Positions 8,727 through 28,063 of a stretch of DNA of 32,949 nt are shown in pieces (the stretch's first letter is position 1; the number at the start of each line of letters is the position of its first letter). Origin of the DNA: a virus; the IMG/VR virus record IMGVR_UViG_3300036830_000283, positions 1 through 32,949 of that record; one strand, 5' to 3'. The translations under genes and the position numbers were made by a program. Under the pieces are notes generated by a model that ran no database searches, was not told the origin of the DNA, and saw nothing but the letters and a program-made list of their open reading frames with translations.

Positions 8727-8882
8727 TCAACCGGCGTCCTCGTCGTCGGTTGAACGGGCGACCGCCAACATCCACAAGCTGGTCACCGCGTAGAAGCCGG
8801 CGAACCACGAACCCACCAGCAACGCCGGCAAACCGAACGCGATCACCCCTAGGGCGAGCAGCTGCCGCTGTCCTTCGCTCAC
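8727..8882 (-). CDS. 51-residue two-span membrane peptide
   Basis: GTG at 8882 overlaps the portal stop (GTGA). Two hydrophobic segments, LLALGVIAFGLPALLVG and FAGFYAVTSLWMLAVA, end with an acidic tail. Not recognised; a membrane accessory of the head-assembly block. Confidence 0.6.
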   Translation of the reverse strand: MSEGQRQLLALGVIAFGLPALLVGSWFAGFYAVTSLWMLAVARSTDDEDAG

Positions 8883-11872
8883 ATCGCCACCCCCAACTCG
8901 AACAGGGCCTGCACAGCCTCGAAGTCCCCGCCGCGACCCAACTCGTTCGCCGCTTGGGCGATCTCGTCGGGGTGCGCGGCGAACTCGAAGTCCCGCCACT
9001 TCCCCGACGCGGCGCGTTTCTGCGCGAACGCCATAAACGCCCGCTGCTCCCGGGCCGCCGTCCCGGCCGACTTCTCAGTGTCGGGAGTGTCGGGCACCTG
9101 CTCATCGCGGTCCGCCGGCACAGCGGCAGCGGGTTTGTTCGCCCGCGGCTGATTTTGCGCGGCGGACGGCAGGTTCCCCGGCATCCCGGTCGGCTGGACG
9201 TCCACGTTCAACCACGCCGGCCCCGTCGGTGTGACAAGCAGCGGCTGATCGGCCTCGGGGAACCCGTAGCGGGGCAGATTCAACCGATCCCGACCCTCGT
9301 TCAGGGTTTGCAGACCGGCACCCACATACCCCTTGAGCAGCGTCGCGTCTTTCTGCTCGTCGGTGTCGTCCAGGCCGATGAACGAGAACGTCACCTCCGG
9401 TGGCATCCCCAAATAGTCGCGGGACACCTGATTGATGAGGTCCACTATCCACTGCGCGGTCGGTTTCGTACCCCGCTCCAACTGGGCGTCCGATTCGCCC
9501 TGCATGTGACCCTGGCCGCCCATACCGCCCATACCGTGGTTCGGGGTGAACCCGATGTTCGTGGGCAACACACCAAACGACGCGCAGATCAACCGGATGA
9601 TGTGCAAATCCAAATCCGAGTTGAACTTGGCGTCGAAGTTCTGCGGATACGACGGTTCGAACCCGGCCGGGAGGAACCTGGCCCGGTGCCGCTGATCGGT
9701 CTGCCCCGACAGGTCATCGTTGAACACAGCTTCGTACTCGCGTAGCTGCTCCGGGGTCATCGTCGCATCCACCCGCACCACCATCTCCGGGGTGACACCG
9801 GCGGAAAACTCCGACCGCAACCAATCCCAGCGTTTCAACCACAAATCGATGTTGGCGAGGGCCTGCTCCACACACGAATTGCCACACCACGCCGTACGCC
9901 CATTACGCCGCACGTACACGACGCCGTTGGGCACGGAGACACAGTGGACACTGCCCTCGTACCGTTCAACAGTGGGCACGGGCACCTTGTGGTAGTCCCC
10001 CGGACGGTCGGACACCCGGTACTGCGTACGCCGAGCCTTAGTCTTGCCGTTCGGCTCAATCCGGTAGATCCAACCCTCTCGGCCAGCTTTCTGGAGCACC
10101 TCCAGCAGGTCGTCGGCGAGGTACGGGCTCGTTGTCAGGTAGCGGCGATACCCGTTCTTCTCGGTGTGACCGTCGCCGATCATCATCCAGTCGAACAGCA
10201 AGTTCAGCAGCCGAGGCGTCCAGCCCTTCGCCTCGCTCGGGATGCGCTTCTCCCACGACCGCCGCACACCGGCGGCGTAGCAGTTGTCCCGCAGCCACTC
10301 AGCCAGAGGCCCGTGATTCACATAGAAGTAACCGCAGTGGTTAGAGGCGGTCGTGTAGCGCCAGTTCAGACCCGTGTCGGCCAACATCGCGCGGATCTGC
10401 TCGTAATCCGTCGCCCTCTCCGATTGCGAGATGCAGATCGTGTTGCGTCCGGCGGCCGTGCAGCCCTCGGCGAGGTACAGCCCCAAAAACGCGACCCACA
10501 CATCTTGTTCGATCTTCAAGGCAGGTGCGGGATGGTGGCGACCTCGGCGACGATCAGCCGGCTCTAGACAGAACTGGCCAGGCTCGGCCCCACCAGACCA
10601 GTGCGACTTGCCGGGAATGAGGTGGGATCTGGCGCGACCCACCGGGCCGTCGACGAACCACCGGGCCTCGCGGATGACTTCCTCGGTCGGGTTGACCTGT
10701 GGGCGCGCCTTAACCACCATGCGGTGATTCGGGGTAACCAACAGGTCGTACACCTGACTACTGAAGCGAACCATGTCGCCCTCGTAGGGCTGATTCACGT
10801 AGGCAGTCGGCTTCTGCCATTCGAACTCGCCGGAAGCTGAACGAGTCGCAATCAGTTCAGTGCCATTGAGGTCCGCGAAAAACTTCCAGCCCTGATCCGT
10901 GAGGATCTCAGTCTGGGAGTCGTAGCAAAATCCGTACGGCGAGTTCGAACGCCGGTTACGCACCTTGTAGATCAACGTGTCCGTGTTCGCCTCATCACCC
11001 GACGCCGGCCGGTACACCGCCGACGTGAACTCGGCGTCCACCTGATCCGGTGGCGACTGCGAATACTCGCCACGAGGGAACCCAGACAAAATTTGCTGGA
11101 ACGCACAGTAAGGCGCCTGAGGGGTGGCCCCGCGATAATCCAGCAGCGGCTTGATCGAGGTGGAATCGATAAGTTCCAGCGAGTGCAGGTCGCCACCCAT
11201 CGCCAGGTGCGGGTACAACGACACCGCATCCAGGACCAGAAAGTCCTCCAACAGTGCACCCAGCCACTCACTGAACGACCAGTTGTTGATGCGGTCCGGC
11301 TTCTCCCACCAGGCCGTCAACCGTTCCAGGTCGTCGGCGTAGCGGTCCTGCAAGTCGGCGGCGACCGCGAAGTTCGCCTTCCCCTCACGTTTCGCCAGGT
11401 GCCGAACCCGGGACGACTCGATCCCGAACGACCACTCCAAACCGGTCAGGTTCGCTTTGCGGGTTTCGATACAGGCCCGCATCACCGACACCTGATCGGC
11501 GGAGTCCCGCAACACCGACCACGGCACCAGCCGATTCCCGGTCGTTTGGAGGTTCCACGAGGTCGGGTAGTCCCAGCGGCGCGGCGCCGGTCGACCCGAG
11601 GACAACAACGGGTCGATCGCGGCCGGGTCGAGGGGGTCACCCGGTCCGAACGTCACGTTGTTGAACGGGTCCCGCGATAGCGACGTCGAACCCGATGCCC
11701 GGGATGCTGGGCGCCGCTGCAACGCCTGGAGATACCCAGCCGACGCCGGAGTGACCCGAGTACCAGCCGGCAGGGCCGGCATCGCTTTCGCCAGCTCCTC
11801 ACGCACCACCGCACGCAACTCATCCGCCGAGGAAGACGACACCGGAATCCTGGAACGGCGACGACGCGACAT
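8879..11872 (-). CDS. Portal protein interrupted by an intein
   Basis: 997 residues before splicing, about 647 after removal of residues 316-665. The extein has the actinophage portal pattern: RRWDYPTSWNLQTTGNRLVPW, MRACIETRKANLTGLEWSF, WSFSEWLGALLEDFLVLDA, then SPYGF joined to SCVEQALANIDLWLKRWDW, NFDAKFNSDLDLHIIRLICASFGVLP and GESDAQLERGTKPTAQWIVDLINQVSRDYLG. It forms the dodecameric ring through which DNA enters and leaves the head. The C-terminal tail (about 880-997) is Pro/Ala-rich, then helical. ATG at 11872 lies 2 bp after the ATPase paralogue stop. Without protein splicing the portal crown region would be disrupted. Confidence 0.9.
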   Translation of the reverse strand: MSRRRRSRIPVSSSSADELRAVVREELAKAMPALPAGTRVTPASAGYLQALQRRPASRASGSTSLSRDPFNNVTFGPGDPLDPAAIDPLLSSGRPAPRRWDYPTSWNLQTTGNRLVPWSVLRDSADQVSVMRACIETRKANLTGLEWSFGIESSRVRHLAKREGKANFAVAADLQDRYADDLERLTAWWEKPDRINNWSFSEWLGALLEDFLVLDAVSLYPHLAMGGDLHSLELIDSTSIKPLLDYRGATPQAPYCAFQQILSGFPRGEYSQSPPDQVDAEFTSAVYRPASGDEANTDTLIYKVRNRRSNSPYGFCYDSQTEILTDQGWKFFADLNGTELIATRSASGEFEWQKPTAYVNQPYEGDMVRFSSQVYDLLVTPNHRMVVKARPQVNPTEEVIREARWFVDGPVGRARSHLIPGKSHWSGGAEPGQFCLEPADRRRGRHHPAPALKIEQDVWVAFLGLYLAEGCTAAGRNTICISQSERATDYEQIRAMLADTGLNWRYTTASNHCGYFYVNHGPLAEWLRDNCYAAGVRRSWEKRIPSEAKGWTPRLLNLLFDWMMIGDGHTEKNGYRRYLTTSPYLADDLLEVLQKAGREGWIYRIEPNGKTKARRTQYRVSDRPGDYHKVPVPTVERYEGSVHCVSVPNGVVYVRRNGRTAWCGNSCVEQALANIDLWLKRWDWLRSEFSAGVTPEMVVRVDATMTPEQLREYEAVFNDDLSGQTDQRHRARFLPAGFEPSYPQNFDAKFNSDLDLHIIRLICASFGVLPTNIGFTPNHGMGGMGGQGHMQGESDAQLERGTKPTAQWIVDLINQVSRDYLGMPPEVTFSFIGLDDTDEQKDATLLKGYVGAGLQTLNEGRDRLNLPRYGFPEADQPLLVTPTGPAWLNVDVQPTGMPGNLPSAAQNQPRANKPAAAVPADRDEQVPDTPDTEKSAGTAAREQRAFMAFAQKRAASGKWRDFEFAAHPDEIAQAANELGRGGDFEAVQALFELGVAM
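9878..10927 (-). other. Class 1 intein with LAGLIDADG endonuclease, in the portal
   Basis: 350 residues. N-terminal splice block CYDSQTEILTDQGWKFF (Cys1), block B LLVTPNHRMVV with the TxxH motif, two LAGLIDADG-type helices (VAFLGLYLAEGC and LLFDWMMIGDGH), and the C-terminal block HCVSVPNGVVYVRRNGR ending AWCGN before Ser+1. The splice joins SPYGF to SCVEQ, restoring a normal portal motif. The penultimate residue is Gly instead of the usual His, a rarer variant that can slow Asn cyclisation. Confidence 0.88.
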
Positions 11873-11874
11873 GC

Positions 11875-12585
11875 TCAGCCCACCGCCCCTACTCCATCGT
11901 CATCGTCGAAAAGAACACCGTCCAGCTCTTGCGCACCGAGCCGGGAACCGCCGTAAAGCTCCCGCAACCTCACCAGTGTTTGTGGACTCAAATTGGGGGC
12001 GTTATCCCACGTCGACCCGGTGCGGAACACCACTGAACCGTCATCGACACGGGCCAGTTTCCGCAGCAACCGGATCGGACGTGGTGTGGTAGCCACGAAC
12101 ACCTGACCCGACTCGCCCACAGCGTCACCGAGAATGCGCCACACCTCATCGACGCGAACCATCGCCGCCAACTCGTCCACCCACGCACCCGCCAACCGCG
12201 CATTGCGCAGCCGATCCGGGCGATCCGCCGAGTAACCGCGGATCACCGACCCATTAGCGAGTTTGATCCGCAGGTCACTGATCTCGAACGAGGTCAACTC
12301 GTCAGGATGGAACACACGCAACAACCCCGAGTGGCCCTCGAAACACACCTGCCGGCACGTCGTCCAGGTAGGGGCCACTACCGCCCACTGTGTGTTCGGC
12401 TGGGAAACAGCCTGCTCGGCGAGCCACTCAGCCGCCGCGCGGGTCTTACCCCAACCTCTACCCGCACACGCGACGAAAGTCCGCCAATCCGTGTCCGGGG
12501 GAAGCTGCTCGGAACGAGCCTGCGCATGCCAAAGTCGACGCACCACGCGCCACACCCACTCACTGATAAGATCGGACGAACACAT
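11875..12585 (-). CDS. ATPase-only terminase large-subunit paralogue
   Basis: 236 residues if the ATG at 12585 is used, the first one outside the tRNA on the other strand. It has WHAQARSEQ, Walker A AGRGWGKT (41-48), VVAPTWTTCRQVCFEG, GYSADRPDRLRNARLAGAWVDE with Walker B (132-138), the coupling motif TTPRP and STWDNAPNLS, all aligned with the full terminase encoded 3-5 kb away (roughly half of positions look identical). It then ends in an acidic tail (FDDDDGVGAVG) where the full-length protein continues into the RNase H-like nuclease. ATPase motifs are intact, so it is not obviously decayed. It may assist packaging or replace the motor part; alternatively it is a duplicated remnant. It precedes the portal gene by 2 bp. 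Confidence 0.75.
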   Translation of the reverse strand: MCSSDLISEWVWRVVRRLWHAQARSEQLPPDTDWRTFVACAGRGWGKTRAAAEWLAEQAVSQPNTQWAVVAPTWTTCRQVCFEGHSGLLRVFHPDELTSFEISDLRIKLANGSVIRGYSADRPDRLRNARLAGAWVDELAAMVRVDEVWRILGDAVGESGQVFVATTPRPIRLLRKLARVDDGSVVFRTGSTWDNAPNLSPQTLVRLRELYGGSRLGAQELDGVLFDDDDGVGAVG

Positions 12586-12660
<75 letters not shown>

Positions 12661-12665
12661 CCCAT

Positions 12666-14597
12666 TCACGGGGTTGCGTAGAACCCTTTTTGGTTAGCCT
12701 CAGCGGCTTGCCGGTCTGAGGTGCCCAGCACCGACGTCCAAAACACCGCCTCGGAGAACGTCATCGGCAACGGGGCCAATGACCCGGAGCGGACGACACC
12801 GCCGATGGCAAAGCGATCTCTCGTCGGCTCACCGGTGCCGCGGGTATAGGCGACCGAGGCCAAGTCGACCGCGCCGTCCAACCATTGCGCCATCGCGGTA
12901 CCGGAGTCGGTCGCGGACATCTGGTGGATGGCGCCGTTGAACGTGGACAAGTTGCCCTGGTAGGTGAGGGTGCTATCCACCGGGGACAGCACCGGACGGG
13001 CCCGGGAATGACCACCGGAGTTGTTGTTGTCCGGCTCGCTCAATCCGTACTGGTAGACGGTGTTGGTGGACACCGACTCGGCCCACCAGCGCAGCTGCAC
13101 GGTCGGGGTGGCGGCGGACAGGACCGCGCACATCGACGCCGCGCCGGCCGCCTGCAAGTTCGCCGCCGACTGGAACACGACGTCGTCAACGCCATCGAAC
13201 GTCACCGCAGGCTTCCCACCGGATGTGAGCACCGCACCGGCGGACACCAACTTGGGTTGCGCGGTGGTAGTCGCCTGAGTCAAATTCCGGGTGTTGCCCG
13301 ACTGGTCGTACCAGGTGTCGATGAAACCGTCACCGGAACCGCAGAAGGTGAGCAGGCTGGCCGTGTCCAGGGCGCCGGAGACGAACCCGATGTCCTGGGT
13401 GGTGGAATCCGATGAGCGACGAACCTTCACCGCGCTACCGGCGTAGGTGGGCACAACGAGCCGCAGCGAGTAGGCCCGGGCGGTGACGATGGTCTGCCCG
13501 AGCCCGTTGTTCACCCCACCCGGAGTGGCGGACGCGATCGCGGACACCGTTCCCGGGCCGCCGGTGGACACCGCGATCACCCGGAAGTCGTAGGAAGTGC
13601 CGGTGGTCAACCCCGACACGGCCACGGTTGGGGCGGTGGTGGTGGCGATCGACACGAACGTCGACCCGGCGGTGGTCTTCTGCTGAACGTTGTACGCCCC
13701 GGCGCCCGCCGTCGCCGTCCAGGTCAGTGTCAATCCGGTGGTGGTGACGTTGCTGGCGGCCAAACCGGTCACCTGCCCCGGCACGGCCGGCGGGGTGGGA
13801 TCGGCGGCTCCGGTCAGGACACGCTGGTAGGCGTCGAACATGCTCCGGCCGAGGATGCGCTGGCCGGGCGCCGAGTAGTGGTTCCCGTCGCCGATGTTGT
13901 TGCCGTACACCCCCGGCGCGACCCGAACCCGAGTGTTCCGTGACGGGGTGCCCAGATGCACGGAGTTGATCGCCGCCCGGGTGCCGGTCGACAGATATTC
14001 CGGCACCATCTGACCGAGCACGAACGGCAAGTCCGGCACACCCAGATCGGCGCGCGCCCCGGCGATCAACGCATCCAGATCGGTCTGATAGGCGGCGCCG
14101 GAGGTTCCGTTGTCCCCGTCGGTTTCGCCCTGCACCCACAAGATCGCGGTGTACCGGGCGTTCGCCCCGGCCGCCGCCAGCGCCGCCTGCGCCTGCGCCA
14201 CCGCCTGCGCGTACAGGTTCCCCGCCACACCACGCCGCCAGGCCAGAGTCACGTTCGACGACAGCGGCACCCCGCCGTGCGCCGACGGGACCAACAACAC
14301 CCGACGGTTCACCGGGACCGACTGCAAATACCAGCGGGCGAACACGCTCCCAGGGCCGATCCCGGACGGAGTGTCATGCATTGCGAGGGGTTCCACCGCC
14401 TGGGAGAGCACCCCGGCGTAGGTGCCGGACGCCCCGTACTGCGCGACGCGGGGATCGGACGGGTCGTAGCGCGTCGTGTCATAGGGGACACCCCGCCCAG
14501 ACATGTTGCTCTGACCCCACAACAGGATCAGGTCATACCCGACATCGGTAGTCTTCAACGCCGCCGACGACACAGACGTGACACCCAACCGAGGCAC
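12666..14597 (-). CDS. SGNH esterase / FN3 / arabinofuranosidase-like fibre protein
   Basis: 643 residues, GTG at 14597 three bases after the upstream stop. The N-terminal domain (about 20-262) is a sialate O-acetylesterase/CE6-like SGNH hydrolase: LILLWGQSNMSGRG with Ser30, LWVQGETDG at about 154-161, and GDGNHYSAPGQR with Asp237 and His240. A fibronectin type III domain follows (about 271-357), then an ArabFuran-type lectin-like domain (about 370-643: YSLRLVVPTYAGSAVKVRRS, FIDTWYDQSGNTRNL, KPAVTFDGVDD). This layout fits a tail fibre or depolymerase that deacetylates cell-envelope polysaccharide, possibly arabinogalactan or capsule. It is unusual to find it between terminase and portal genes. 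Confidence 0.8.
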   Translation of the reverse strand: MPRLGVTSVSSAALKTTDVGYDLILLWGQSNMSGRGVPYDTTRYDPSDPRVAQYGASGTYAGVLSQAVEPLAMHDTPSGIGPGSVFARWYLQSVPVNRRVLLVPSAHGGVPLSSNVTLAWRRGVAGNLYAQAVAQAQAALAAAGANARYTAILWVQGETDGDNGTSGAAYQTDLDALIAGARADLGVPDLPFVLGQMVPEYLSTGTRAAINSVHLGTPSRNTRVRVAPGVYGNNIGDGNHYSAPGQRILGRSMFDAYQRVLTGAADPTPPAVPGQVTGLAASNVTTTGLTLTWTATAGAGAYNVQQKTTAGSTFVSIATTTAPTVAVSGLTTGTSYDFRVIAVSTGGPGTVSAIASATPGGVNNGLGQTIVTARAYSLRLVVPTYAGSAVKVRRSSDSTTQDIGFVSGALDTASLLTFCGSGDGFIDTWYDQSGNTRNLTQATTTAQPKLVSAGAVLTSGGKPAVTFDGVDDVVFQSAANLQAAGAASMCAVLSAATPTVQLRWWAESVSTNTVYQYGLSEPDNNNSGGHSRARPVLSPVDSTLTYQGNLSTFNGAIHQMSATDSGTAMAQWLDGAVDLASVAYTRGTGEPTRDRFAIGGVVRSGSLAPLPMTFSEAVFWTSVLGTSDRQAAEANQKGFYATP

Positions 14598-14885: not shown

Positions 14886-15110
14886 TCAGCTAAAAGGTCG
14901 GTTCGCGTGCGCGTTCGCCAACTCCATCGCATCACCCCAGGACCGGCGAGCCCACGTCGCCCTACACCCATCGCATGCCACAATCCACGACCGCTTGTAA
15001 TCGGTGCCCCAACGGGACACCCGCGGCCGATGGGTAGCCGGCGCCGGGATGAACCGTTGACCGATCCCCTTGCCGTACTGCCAACCCAGGTCGAACCCGC
15101 CGCCGATCAC
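14886..15110 (-). CDS. Small CxxC protein, hypothetical
   Basis: 74 residues from a GTG at 15110 that overlaps the terminase stop (GTGA). Contains WIVACDGCRATWARRSWGDAM, a pattern of widespread small actinophage proteins with one Cys pair. Role unknown; translation is coupled to the terminase. Confidence 0.65.
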   Translation of the reverse strand: MIGGGFDLGWQYGKGIGQRFIPAPATHRPRVSRWGTDYKRSWIVACDGCRATWARRSWGDAMELANAHANRPFS

Positions 15111-17434
15111 GCCGCGGCGGCCAGGGAGTGGCCGCAGATGCGGCAGTGAGTTGCTCGGCGGCTATTCGGCAAGTCGCAACTCGGGCACATCTTCGAGATC
15201 GACGACAGAAACACCATCGCCGACCCACCCATTTGGAGTTCGGTCGCCGCCCACACACAGTTGTGCACCAACACTCCGGCCGCAACAAACTCGTGCTGGT
15301 CGGCGACCATCAAGTCGTAGACGTCACGCCGCACGGGCTCGACGTAGCACCCACGCACACTTACCGCCGCACGACTCGGGATTCGGTCGGTACTTGGACT
15401 GCCAAAACTGGGTACCGCACACCGGGCACGGAACCCGTCGCTGATAGCGGCGGGACTGATCGTTGACGCGGTTGATGCACGTCCGGGAACAGTACCGAGA
15501 CCGCCCGGCGACACTGACCGGGCTGCGATATTCCTTCCGGCAGCACTCACAGACGCGGGTGACGTACTCCCGACCTTCCCAGGTGCGTTTACCGTGTGCG
15601 CGATGCCAGGCGCGTCCTTCCGGACTGGCATGCCATGCGACTGACAGAGGACGGATCCGTCCGGCGTGGGCACGCAGCGCATCGCGCTGCTCATCGGTGT
15701 ACTCGTCGGCGTGCCGGAGTTGATGCGCGGACGGCGAGAGTAGGACAAGGTTCGCGGGTTCGTTGTTGAACGGGTCGTGATCGACGTGATGGATGTGCCA
15801 GCCAGCGGGTATTTCCCGTCCCGGGTGCGCGTGCTGTTTCCCACCAGGGTTGCGTTTGTACACGACACCGTGGAATTCGACAGATACGGGGTGTTCGACC
15901 ACCCGTCCAAGATATCGCCACACACCAAAGCATCCAACCTGGCCCAACCATTCCCAGTCCAGATCCGGTGATCAGGTGTACCGGTCAGCGCACGACCATC
16001 AGACAACTCAACGGTCATCACCTCGGCGTCGCGCCGAGTCCGTCCAGAACGCACCACCGGTTTCCAACCAACCCGCGTCCACACGAACTCGCCCACAGCC
16101 ACCGATTCGATCGGGACCTCACCCCGCGCGGTCAGGACCGGCGTTTCTCCAACGAAACAGGCATCCAAGTTGTCCGGCGACTCCGTCGAATCCTGAGTAA
16201 ACGAACACATCTGATCCTCAAGGTTCGCCATCACCCCCACAAGATGCGCACGGCCCTGCTCCCACAACGCGGCGATCGGCTCCGCGCGGATCGTCTTACC
16301 CCGCGTCGCCCGCACCGACTTATACGCAACATTCGCATCGACCGTGCGCAGCACATGTTCGATGTAGTCACCACCGTTGTTGACCTCACCGACAATCCGG
16401 TCGGCATGCCACCGGTGATAGGCGGTCACCGCACGGGTCATACACGCGTGCGGGGAACCCTTCATCGTCGCGTCCTCCAGGACATACAGATGCCCCTCAC
16501 GATCACGACCCACCACCACAATCCCGGTGGAGTCGGCCTTCTCCCCCGACGTCACCGCCGGATCCACACCCACCACGATCCGCACCATCTCCGGCGCCTG
16601 ATCCAGGCGGTCAACACGAGAATCATCCAACTGATCCCGAGACCACAGCGCACCCTCGATGTCAGTGAGAAGTTCCCCCTCCAACTCCTGACGCCCAAGG
16701 CGGGTGTTCTCGTACCGGATCCGCAGATTCTCCAAAGCAGTCCGCGACAGATTCTTCGCGTTATCCCACGTCGAACCACGGATCACCCGGACAGAACCAT
16801 CGTCACGAGCGAGAAGCTCCCGCAAAATCTTGATCGGCCGCGGCGTCGTCGTCACCACCACCTGCGGGTTGTCACCGATACGCAGCGCCGGCATGAGGCT
16901 CTCACCCCACAAATCGTCGGCATGCACCATCGACGCAATCTCATCCAACCAAGCCCCGGACAAGTTCGCGCCACGAAGCCGATCCGGACGGTCAGCGCTG
17001 TAGCCGTAAATCTTCGAACCGTTCGACAACCGCACCGTCAAGTCCGACGCGTTCGACGACTCCAACTCGCCCGGCAACAAAGCCCTCAACACCCCAGAAG
17101 GGCCCTCCAAGCACACCTTCCGACAATCCCGCCACGTCGGAGCAATAACAGCCCACTCCGTACCCGGATTCGTCGCAGCCTGCTCCGCCAACCAATTCGA
17201 CCCCGTCGCCGACTTCCCCCACCCACGACCAGCCAAATACAGATGCACCTGGAAGCCGGCATCAACCGGAACCCGCTGCTCCTCCCGCGCCGACTCATGC
17301 CACGGACGCGGACGAGGCGGAGCCACTTTCGCAATCCTGCGCTGCAACTCAATCTGCTGAAGACGCAACCGCCGCAGCATCTCCAACTTCTCCAGAGACG
17401 CCCCCACCTCGTCCACACGATCCTTATCGCGCAC
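15107..17434 (-). CDS. Terminase large subunit (TerL) interrupted by an intein
   Basis: 775 residues, about 475 after removal of residues 426-725. Walker A AGRGWGKS (68-75), Walker B GAWLDE (160-165), coupling motif TTTPRP (195-200), nuclease Asp in VGVDPAV (291), GEVNNGGDYIEHVL, and the closing nuclease motif PDNLDA joined to CVWAATEL after splicing. It is the motor that pumps DNA into the head and cuts it. The C-terminus carries a small zinc ribbon (CPSCDLPNSRRATHCRICG). GTG start at 17434 with GGGGGTG upstream. The intein sits inside the metal-binding nuclease motif, so unspliced protein would lack nuclease activity. The small subunit-like gene is far away (20.9 kb). Confidence 0.92.
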   Translation of the reverse strand: MRDKDRVDEVGASLEKLEMLRRLRLQQIELQRRIAKVAPPRPRPWHESAREEQRVPVDAGFQVHLYLAGRGWGKSATGSNWLAEQAATNPGTEWAVIAPTWRDCRKVCLEGPSGVLRALLPGELESSNASDLTVRLSNGSKIYGYSADRPDRLRGANLSGAWLDEIASMVHADDLWGESLMPALRIGDNPQVVVTTTPRPIKILRELLARDDGSVRVIRGSTWDNAKNLSRTALENLRIRYENTRLGRQELEGELLTDIEGALWSRDQLDDSRVDRLDQAPEMVRIVVGVDPAVTSGEKADSTGIVVVGRDREGHLYVLEDATMKGSPHACMTRAVTAYHRWHADRIVGEVNNGGDYIEHVLRTVDANVAYKSVRATRGKTIRAEPIAALWEQGRAHLVGVMANLEDQMCSFTQDSTESPDNLDACFVGETPVLTARGEVPIESVAVGEFVWTRVGWKPVVRSGRTRRDAEVMTVELSDGRALTGTPDHRIWTGNGWARLDALVCGDILDGWSNTPYLSNSTVSCTNATLVGNSTRTRDGKYPLAGTSITSITTRSTTNPRTLSYSRRPRINSGTPTSTPMSSAMRCVPTPDGSVLCQSHGMPVRKDAPGIAHTVNAPGKVGSTSPASVSAAGRNIAARSVSPGGLGTVPGRASTASTISPAAISDGFRARCAVPSFGSPSTDRIPSRAAVSVRGCYVEPVRRDVYDLMVADQHEFVAAGVLVHNCVWAATELQMGGSAMVFLSSISKMCPSCDLPNSRRATHCRICGHSLAAAA
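15260..16159 (-). other. Intein in TerL with splice blocks intact
   Basis: 300 residues. Start CFVGETPVLTARGEVPIESV (Cys1), block B GTPDHRIWT with TxxH, GWARLDALVCGDIL, then a Ser/Thr/Pro/Arg-rich stretch of roughly 170 residues without any known domain, then block F DVYDLMVADQHEFVAAGVL and the ending VHN before Cys+1. All splicing residues are present. The middle low-complexity stretch is the wrong-frame reading of the HNH gene nested here. The reading frame stays open throughout. Confidence 0.88.
15324..15902 (-). CDS. HNH homing endonuclease nested out of frame in the TerL intein
   Basis: About 192 residues from a GTG at 15902 (GTG 15923 and TTG 15947 are alternatives; none has a strong ribosome site). 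The HNH core is IPAGWHIHHVDHDPFNNEPANLVLL in two adjoining parts: GWHIHHVDHDPFNN, then EPANLVLLSPSAHQ. Two zinc-finger-like clusters follow, CECC plus YCSRTC, and CPVCG plus ESCGGKC, and the protein stops 11 residues later. The frame is -1 relative to TerL. Its stop falls just before the C-terminal splice block of the intein. The complete HNH and zinc residues argue for a functional nuclease. Confidence 0.8.
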   Translation of the reverse strand: MVEHPVSVEFHGVVYKRNPGGKQHAHPGREIPAGWHIHHVDHDPFNNEPANLVLLSPSAHQLRHADEYTDEQRDALRAHAGRIRPLSVAWHASPEGRAWHRAHGKRTWEGREYVTRVCECCRKEYRSPVSVAGRSRYCSRTCINRVNDQSRRYQRRVPCPVCGTQFWQSKYRPNPESCGGKCAWVLRRARAA

Positions 17435-17929: not shown

Positions 17930-18111
17930 CACCACGCACCCGGAATCGACAACCAACCCACATCCAACGGTGGATCCACCAAACACCCATGCCCCGCCGG
18001 ATCCACCAACCACACACTCTTCAAACCGTCATCAGCGCACTCATACGAAATGTCCACCGGCAACGTCAACGACACACCACAACCCGGACACACCACAACC
18101 AAAGAAGCCAT
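17929..18111 (-). CDS. 60-residue zinc-ribbon-like protein
   Basis: ATG at 18111 overlaps the stop of the ClpC-like gene (TGATG). Starts MASLVVVCPGCGVSLTLPVD with a Cys pair, later ECADDG and HGCLVD. Probably a one-zinc fold. Role unknown; as part of the ClpC-domain operon it may be an adaptor or regulator partner. Confidence 0.6.
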   Translation of the reverse strand: MASLVVVCPGCGVSLTLPVDISYECADDGLKSVWLVDPAGHGCLVDPPLDVGWLSIPGAW

Positions 18112-18731
18112 CAGCGGCGATACCTCACCGTCAACACCTCAGTCACCTCACCCGACGAATGCTCCGTCGTCACCCGCGCAAAATCAGACACCGGCAAACC
18201 AGCAGCCACCCGCCGGCCCAAATCACCAATCAACCCGTGCAAATTCGCATTCGGAACCGTCGCCGACACCACCGGCACATCCGACACCACGTGCGGCTTC
18301 CTACCGATCAACTCGAACACCCGCACACGAACATCGCCCGAATCAACATCCAGCTTCGTCAACAACTGACACGCCACACCCCCACCCTCACGAAGCACCC
18401 CCAACAAAAGATGCTCCGTACCGATGTAGCTATGCCCCAACTGAAGAGCCTCACGCAACGCCAACTCCAAAACCTTCTTACCGCGCGGCGTATACGGAAT
18501 ATGACCCGGCGGCGGCTGGGAGCCCCTACCCACAAGCTCAACCAGCAGCTGGCGCACCGCATCGCCGGAAACACCCAGCGCATCCAGAACCTGAGCGGCG
18601 ATCCCCTCCCCCTCGTGAATCAAACCTAGGAGCAGGTGTTCCGTGCCGATGTAGTTGTGATCGAGGCCCCGCGCCTCCTCCTGCGCGAGGACAACCACCC
18701 GGCGAGCACGATCAGTGAAACGCTCAAACAT
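18111..18731 (-). CDS. Stand-alone ClpC N-terminal domain protein
   Basis: 206 residues from the ATG at 18731; the frame is open 17 codons further, but MFERFTDRAR is the canonical ClpC start. Two Clp_N repeats are plain: MFERFTDRARRVVVLAQEEA, NYIGTEHLLLGLIHEGEG (about 1-65), then HIPYTPRGKKVLELALREAL, YIGTEHLLLGVLREGGG (about 75-135). The similarity to actinobacterial ClpC1 is very high. No ATPase module follows; residues about 140-206 are a different domain. ClpC N-domains receive substrates and adaptors, so this protein could compete for or redirect the host ClpC-ClpP protease. The known cellular analogue is mycobacterial ClpC2. It is the first gene leftward of the GATC array; no ribosome site is obvious. 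Confidence 0.88.
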   Translation of the reverse strand: MFERFTDRARRVVVLAQEEARGLDHNYIGTEHLLLGLIHEGEGIAAQVLDALGVSGDAVRQLLVELVGRGSQPPPGHIPYTPRGKKVLELALREALQLGHSYIGTEHLLLGVLREGGGVACQLLTKLDVDSGDVRVRVFELIGRKPHVVSDVPVVSATVPNANLHGLIGDLGRRVAAGLPVSDFARVTTEHSSGEVTEVLTVRYRR

Positions 18732-18738
18732 TAGCGTC

Positions 18739-18758
18739 CAAAAAATTGGGCCAAAAAA
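18739..18758. promoter_or_regulatory. Two A-tracts upstream of the ClpC-like gene
   Basis: On the + strand the sequence ccaaaaaattgggccaaaaa contains two runs of A about 13 bases apart, a pattern that bends DNA. They lie between the ClpC-like start and the GATC array. A clear -35/-10 pair is not seen. Confidence 0.35.
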
Positions 18759-18795
18759 ATGGGGAAATACGGACGAGGACAAACCCTTGCCCTCA

Positions 18796-27415: not shown

Positions 27416-27454
27416 CCGGGGCGCACGGGCTGTAGGTGGGTCCGTGTGCGCCGG
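27416..27454 (+). promoter_or_regulatory. Leader family B hairpin, imperfect copy
   Basis: A 13-bp stem with one mismatch and one G-U pair (27416-27428 with 27442-27454), followed by ccggctgtccggctg. It repeats the layout at 26703, 40 bp before the recombinase start. Confidence 0.5.
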
Positions 27455-27493
27455 CCGGCTGTCCGGCTGGGAATGGGATGGGAGGACGGGGCG

Positions 27494-28063
27494 ATGCTGT
27501 TCGGGTATTGCCGGGTGTCGACCCGGCATCAGGTGAATGACCGTCAGGTCGACGCGTTGGTCGCGGCCGGCGTGGAGTTGGACAACATTTTTCAGGACAA
27601 GATCACGGGTACGAAGTTCGTGCGGCGTGGTCTGTCTGAGCTGTTGACGCGTGCCCGCGAGGGCGACGTGATCATGGTTGCGAGTATGGATCGGCTGGGC
27701 CGGTCGTTGTCGGAGGTGATCCGCACGGCGGATGATCTGCATCGGCGCGGGATCGTGCTCAAGACGATCAAGGAGTCCATCGATTACAGCTCGTCGATCG
27801 GGCGGATGTTGGCGGGGATCTTCGCAACGCTGGCGCAGTACGAGCTGGATCTCATCCATGAGCGGGCGGATGATGCGCGGGCCGCAGCGAAGGCGCGGGG
27901 TAAGCAGACTGGGCGGCCGTCGCGGCTGACCGGCGATCAGGAGCGTCAGTTGGTGGCGCTCCGCGCGGCGGACGAGTCGATCTCTGACCTGGTCGTGACG
28001 TTCAAGGTGTCCCGGGCGACGGTGTACCGGGTGTTGGCTAAGCACGGGATGGAGGCGGCGTGA
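27494..28063 (+). CDS. Small serine recombinase (resolvase/invertase type)
   Basis: 189 residues, ATG at 27494 behind GGGAGGACGGGG. Catalytic Ser in GYCRVST (Ser9), FQDKITGTKFVRRGLSELL, VIMVASMDRLGRSLSEVI, IGRMLAGIFATLAQYELDLI, then GRPSRLTGDQERQLVALRA and VSRATVYRVLAKHG as a Hin-like helix-turn-helix. It breaks and rejoins DNA at short sites. The length is that of resolvases and invertases, not of large phage integrases. Its stop overlaps the next start (TGATG). No obvious inverted crossover sites flank a gene here. Confidence 0.9.
   Translation: MLFGYCRVSTRHQVNDRQVDALVAAGVELDNIFQDKITGTKFVRRGLSELLTRAREGDVIMVASMDRLGRSLSEVIRTADDLHRRGIVLKTIKESIDYSSSIGRMLAGIFATLAQYELDLIHERADDARAAAKARGKQTGRPSRLTGDQERQLVALRAADESISDLVVTFKVSRATVYRVLAKHGMEAA

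Follow-up and report, generated by a model that had tools for sequence, protein, structure and literature searches.

We found that the gene for the terminase large subunit (TerL) in this virus carries a class 1 intein, and that between the halves of its splicing (Hint) domain lies a nested, separate gene for an HNH homing-endonuclease-like protein, which is read in the -1 (+2) frame and would be translated by internal initiation. We put the probability of this reading at roughly 0.8. The window, that is, the whole stretch of 32,949 nucleotides that was analysed, contains the locus on its minus strand, with the following features:

15107..17434 (-): TerL (terminase large subunit) ORF, split in frame by the intein; Pfam Terminase_6N 4.6e-16, Terminase_6C 2.1e-14
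15260..16159 (-): intein, 300 codons, Cys1 to Asn300; re-translation, Pfam Intein_splicing 1.4e-9 and Hint_2 1.1e-6, empty site in 16 relatives
15890..16159 (-): Hint N-half, residues 1-90, with Cys1 and the block B TxxH (TPDH); AlphaFold pLDDT 91-98, conserved residues
15380..15889 (-): TerL-frame linker, residues 91-260, rich in Ser, Thr, Pro and Arg; pLDDT mostly 41-51, dN/dS about 1 in relatives
15260..15379 (-): Hint C-half, residues 261-300, carrying blocks F (VYDL...HEF) and G (VLVHN); re-translation, AlphaFold, match to the Mtu RecA structure
15324..15902 (-): nested HNH gene in the +2 (-1) frame, HNH_3 domain and two zinc clusters, 192 aa; Pfam, re-translation, AlphaFold

TerL and the intein form a single ORF of 775 codons in the window, and the host ORF is not broken into N and C genes. 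Re-translation confirmed the exact boundaries and the splice blocks at both ends given by an earlier sequence-only reading of this DNA, as well as the Ser/Thr/Pro/Arg-rich stretch that it had noted between them. The Cys1 codon lies at 16157-16159 and the Asn300 codon at 15260-15262, the next residue is Cys (CFVGETP...VLVHN|CVWA), and the extein junctions read ...ESPDNLDA before the intein and CVWAATEL... after it. All class 1 residues are present, namely Cys1, the TPDH of block B and VYDL...HEF...VLVHN|C of blocks F and G. When aligned with other terminase inteins, as the same reading had proposed, Cys1 was found in 78/78 alignable inteins and blocks B and G were conserved, with C1 and H64 invariant and T61 nearly so; the nested +2 HNH was likewise shared.

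AlphaFold predicts a confident Hint fold for residues 1-90 and 261-300 of the TerL-frame intein, with pLDDT about 50 across residues 91-260. The Hint model superposes on the Mtu RecA mini-intein (Z 21.1, rmsd 1.4, 129 residues), and a TerL-intein profile gave gp41-1 as its best match (E 7.5e-18). In the model, the two Hint halves come together as an intact class 1 mini-intein core, and the linker is predicted to be disordered. The intein with this core, which would splice in cis, sits at the motif of the TerL nuclease domain.

The DNA of the TerL-frame linker (15380..15889) is also that of most of the HNH gene, and the first ~18 codons of the Hint C-half are shared with the 3' end of that gene. 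Each HNH-frame codon starts on the third base of a TerL codon, a frame reachable by -1 or +2. This frame stays open from about 15971 up to its stop codon, 15324-15326, which ends a single base short of block F, with GTG 15900-15902 as the most likely start and GTG 15923 and TTG 15947 as alternatives. Pfam HNH_3 matches the window protein with E about 1.6e-8 to 1.8e-8 and was found in 36/36 family members examined. The protein contains two CxxC...CxxxC clusters (invariant C118, C121, C138, C142, C159, C162, C178 and C182), and in the family alignment the HH, N, N and H residues are invariant together with the zinc cysteines. These observations agree with the HNH domain, two zinc clusters and own stop that the sequence-only reading had placed in the -1 frame.

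The HNH-frame protein is predicted with a mean pLDDT of 86. A Foldseek search of the PDB with this model gave no significant match, so the HNH assignment rests on sequence, namely Pfam HNH_3 and the nearest solved sequence, the homing endonuclease I-HmuI (1u3e, E 0.0024). The conserved LHRxIW helix that immediately precedes the HNH motif in nearly all relatives is absent in the window copy and in three other loci (L002-L004), and the nuclease activity of the window HNH itself is therefore uncertain. The HNH frame of L003/L004, which also lack the helix, is still under purifying selection (dN/dS 0.18). A search of the window's own virus record returned only the locus itself.

Taken alone, the open host frame of the window copy is weak evidence (P about 0.08), and the weight of the argument therefore comes from relatives. 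We ran tblastn and then a profile of the HNHs found; the profile yielded 80 IMG/VR loci and 33 genome contigs, and 112 family members were scored. The tblastn search detected the same layout in the TerL genes of three phages, the isolated phages TJE1 (Tetrasphaera) and Highwayman (Acinetobacter) and the Rhodobacteraceae phage MD07, with the HNH in +2 each time. The genome contigs gave no match to the single window HNH, whereas the alignment-based search did find loci in them. In total, 86/112 family members were nested in an open host frame, always in +2 and never in frame; since nesting was recognised by the open host frame, zero stops is partly a matter of definition, and the fair figures are these 86 against 11 expected (see below) and those of the Hint-based search. 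Most of the 80 IMG/VR loci and at least 15 of the bacterial and archaeal genome contigs were nested, all in +2.

The converse, HNH-blind search, which used only the splicing (Hint) half as query, returned 79 inteins, of which 63 carried a nested +2 HNH (in some cases only HNH remnants) and 0 an in-frame one. The rest were 12 mini-inteins of roughly 117-134 aa, three inteins from one virus with a broken host frame and one cut by the contig end. The two sets share some contigs and their counts are not additive. The sequence-only reading had named relatives with the HNH in frame as a finding that would refute it; none occurred among the 112 HNH-selected and 79 Hint-selected loci. The nested form is the commonest among the TerL-type inteins sampled here. 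A complete archaeal plasmid from Halobacterium also carries a nested +2 HNH in its TerL, and nested inteins occur in portal genes (L205, L206) and in one further gene (L112). Judging from these distinct viral, bacterial and archaeal sequences, more than 80 in number, the layout recurs and is real, not a sequencing error.

Some of these loci have features of their own. In L224 and L225 the intein occupies a different TerL motif (GAW|C...HN|CDE) and likewise encloses a +2 HNH; the nested HNH ORFs there (L224 1570-2433, L225 1609-2433) contain expanded arrays of Cys-rich zinc clusters. In L208 (992-4447), one protein has both Pfam LAGLIDADG hits and a separate intein carrying a nested HNH.

The choice of frame and the selection acting on it are both visible across the family. 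With synonymous codons shuffled within each HNH gene, about 2-5 stops per gene are expected in +2 vs about 17-18 in +1, and it is this scarcity of stops in +2 that accounts for the use of that frame. By chance about 11/112 host frames would be open, vs the 86 observed; among low-GC members 39/51 are open vs 2 expected, and in non-nested HNH relatives the number of +2 stops is as expected (4.8 vs 4.7). Therefore, selection keeps the TerL frame free of stops only in loci with a nested HNH. Over pairs of relatives, dN/dS, obtained by counting and approximate where frames overlap, was 0.07-0.45 in the HNH frame, about 1 (0.6-1.8) for the same DNA in the TerL frame and 0.05-0.27 in the Hint parts. 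Based on this contrast between frames, the TerL-frame linker is probably unconstrained filler and the HNH probably a maintained protein, in line with the neutral filler of a small intein that the sequence-only reading had suggested, along with a comparison of selection in both frames. Read in the TerL frame, the DNA would give a linker of about 170 residues that is probably disordered and needs only to lack stops; read from its own start, it would give a separate HNH protein of 190-220 aa.

How this protein is made bears on two rival explanations. Of the 83 non-redundant nested loci, 72 start with ATG, 6 with GTG and 3 with TTG, and 2 had no start; the starts lie a median of 4 codons downstream of a stop in the HNH frame; in 68/81 loci such a stop falls within 10 codons upstream. 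A Shine-Dalgarno match of at least 4 nt precedes 57% of nested starts vs 21% of other out-of-frame ATGs (p 1.6e-11). The starts near HNH-frame stops and the Shine-Dalgarno enrichment favour separate translation, and internal initiation would be the best explanation for the HNH. The window start is weak in context (GTG, poor Shine-Dalgarno) and aligns within one codon of an ATG in the relative L071. Programmed -1 frameshifting, in which a fusion of TerL-N, Hint-N and HNH would be the active endonuclease, fits the frame offset, which is the one that -1 slippage reaches, and the want of a strong Shine-Dalgarno at the window start. Besides the stops and the start-site enrichment just described, it is opposed by the canonical slippery heptamers, which occur in 5/81 loci vs a 4.8% background and nowhere in the window; we rejected it for this absence of slippery-site enrichment and regard it as improbable. 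Thus, of the two routes that the sequence-only reading had offered, a nuclease made separately is supported and one made by frameshifting is not. An artefact, in which two compensating indels shifted an originally in-frame HNH, has in its favour nothing but the oddity of a single metagenomic contig, whereas the always-+2 layout spans 83 non-redundant loci from many projects, isolated phages and a complete archaeal plasmid, with zero in-frame relatives. The relatives refute an assembly error, which we judge extremely improbable; the sequence-only reading had leaned the same way, rightly, from the natural stop of the HNH frame, an argument that is weak by itself.

The other two rivals accept the nested gene and dispute its role, and here its mobility matters. 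Sixteen TerL genes related to that of the window, 43-77% identical across the part that matched, have a precise empty site, reading ESPDNLDA^LVWSATEL and more generally (L/M/C)VW or CIW directly after ...LDA or MDA; L224 and L225 are among them. In 14/16 of these relatives the stretch examined gave no HNH match. Mini-inteins without an HNH, and HNH remnants, occur at the same site, which would suit a decaying passenger whose homing ended long ago, with splicing alone maintained, as would the missing LHRxIW helix of the window copy and L002-L004. Such a history is nonetheless doubtful, given the low HNH-frame dN/dS across pairs, L003/L004 included, and the invariant HH, N, N and H residues and zinc cysteines. 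Alternatively, the HNH could be a DNA-packaging accessory working with TerL and not a homing endonuclease: freestanding members of the same HNH family lie directly beside intein-less TerL genes, and HNH proteins are known in phage packaging, according to a reference cited in PMC10448857. We consider this role unlikely, since the HNH sits inside a mobile intein, the site is empty in close TerL relatives, most of which gave no HNH match in the stretch examined, the same cassette is found in portal inteins, and the nearest solved sequence is a homing endonuclease.

Returning to the nested, separately translated gene, its operation may be outlined as follows. TerL would be translated straight through and the intein would then splice itself out; the internally initiated HNH would cut intein-free TerL genes at the site, and repair would copy the intein with its nested gene into the cut TerL. 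We infer site-specific cleavage and homing by the HNH from two observations, its sporadic distribution and the empty sites.

Nested and freestanding HNHs are interspersed across the family tree, with 10 parsimony changes, at least 2 of them forced by well-supported branches; this was a quickly built tree in which many branches are weak, and fractured loci were left out of the count. The window HNH groups with the nested HNHs of L071 and L092 (support 99), whose inteins are inserted at the same site as that of the window. In L057, L064, L070, L073, L083, L088 and L124 (Brochothrix BL3), TerL is divided into two genes bearing a Hint N and a Hint C half, and a member of the same HNH family lies in between; these are apparent fractured genes with split inteins. 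We find it probable that the window belongs to a large class of phage and archaeal-plasmid inteins with nested, independently translated HNH genes, born when a freestanding TerL-associated HNH invaded a mini-intein and not by domain fusion. Such an invasion would use the one permissive frame.

Other features of the window were also recorded. A portal ORF at 8879-11872 (-) of 997 aa (Phage_portal E 7.7e-13, LAGLIDADG_3 E 1.2e-4) appears to hold an ordinary in-frame LAGLIDADG-type intein, so that the window would have both in-frame and out-of-frame designs. Directly upstream of the portal gene, 11875-12630 (-) encodes a second TerL-like ATPase domain (Terminase_6N E 1.1e-13) without the nuclease half, and between the two TerL-like genes lies a SASA-type esterase with a fibronectin III domain (12666-14597, -). 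A phage protein at 18111-18782 (-) has two Clp_N stretches (E 2e-35) without a Clp ATPase domain, and 27446-28063 (+) encodes a serine resolvase/invertase (Resolvase E 1.8e-35).

The spread of the layout, the precise empty sites and the existence of freestanding and fractured arrangements go beyond the sequence-only reading. An endonuclease uncoupled from its intein would need no structural compatibility with it and could be lost without harm to splicing, which offers endonuclease genes a simple route into mini-inteins. The DNA of many TerL proteins whose intein seems long and disordered may also encode a nuclease that has escaped annotation. Moreover, the occurrence of a single HNH family in three arrangements, freestanding, fractured and nested, makes the origin of intein-endonuclease pairs directly testable. 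This two-genes-in-one layout is apparently an under-described kind of mobile element.

In the searchable literature, the only out-of-frame HNH genes we found were ShiLan-type methylase insertions, which have no intein; a preprint (bioRxiv 10.1101/2025.01.02.630785), cited in PMC11855218 for non-canonical actinobacteriophage inteins, may overlap with our findings. In ShiLan, a zinc-finger HNH lies in the third frame of a methylase gene that is open throughout the insertion, with a GTG start 18 bp in, and independent translation and homing were proposed (PMC11855218); a later genome announcement described the same kind of methylase insertion (PMC12613952). Like the window, ShiLan has a zinc-cluster HNH out of frame in an open host gene. 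However, its insertion lacks both the Hint fold and the splicing motifs of an intein and presumably stays in the methylase, whereas the full Hint intein around the window HNH should remove it. No Mycobacterium phage was among the HNH matches listed.

Inteins are usually described as fusions of a splicing and an endonuclease domain. Canonical inteins with an in-frame LAGLIDADG or HNH share with the window the Hint domain, an endonuclease between the splice blocks and a conserved motif of an essential gene as the insertion site. Their endonuclease is part of the intein polypeptide, whereas in the window the HNH lies outside the intein reading frame and would be a separate protein. The gp41-1 and Mtu RecA mini-inteins have the same Hint fold but no nested gene. 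Fractured genes, reportedly described by Dassa et al. in 2009 as split inteins whose halves flank a free endonuclease gene, resemble the window in that the intein parts and the endonuclease are separate products. There the host gene is split; in the window, by contrast, TerL and its intein are uninterrupted, splicing would occur in cis, and the endonuclease gene overlaps the intein.
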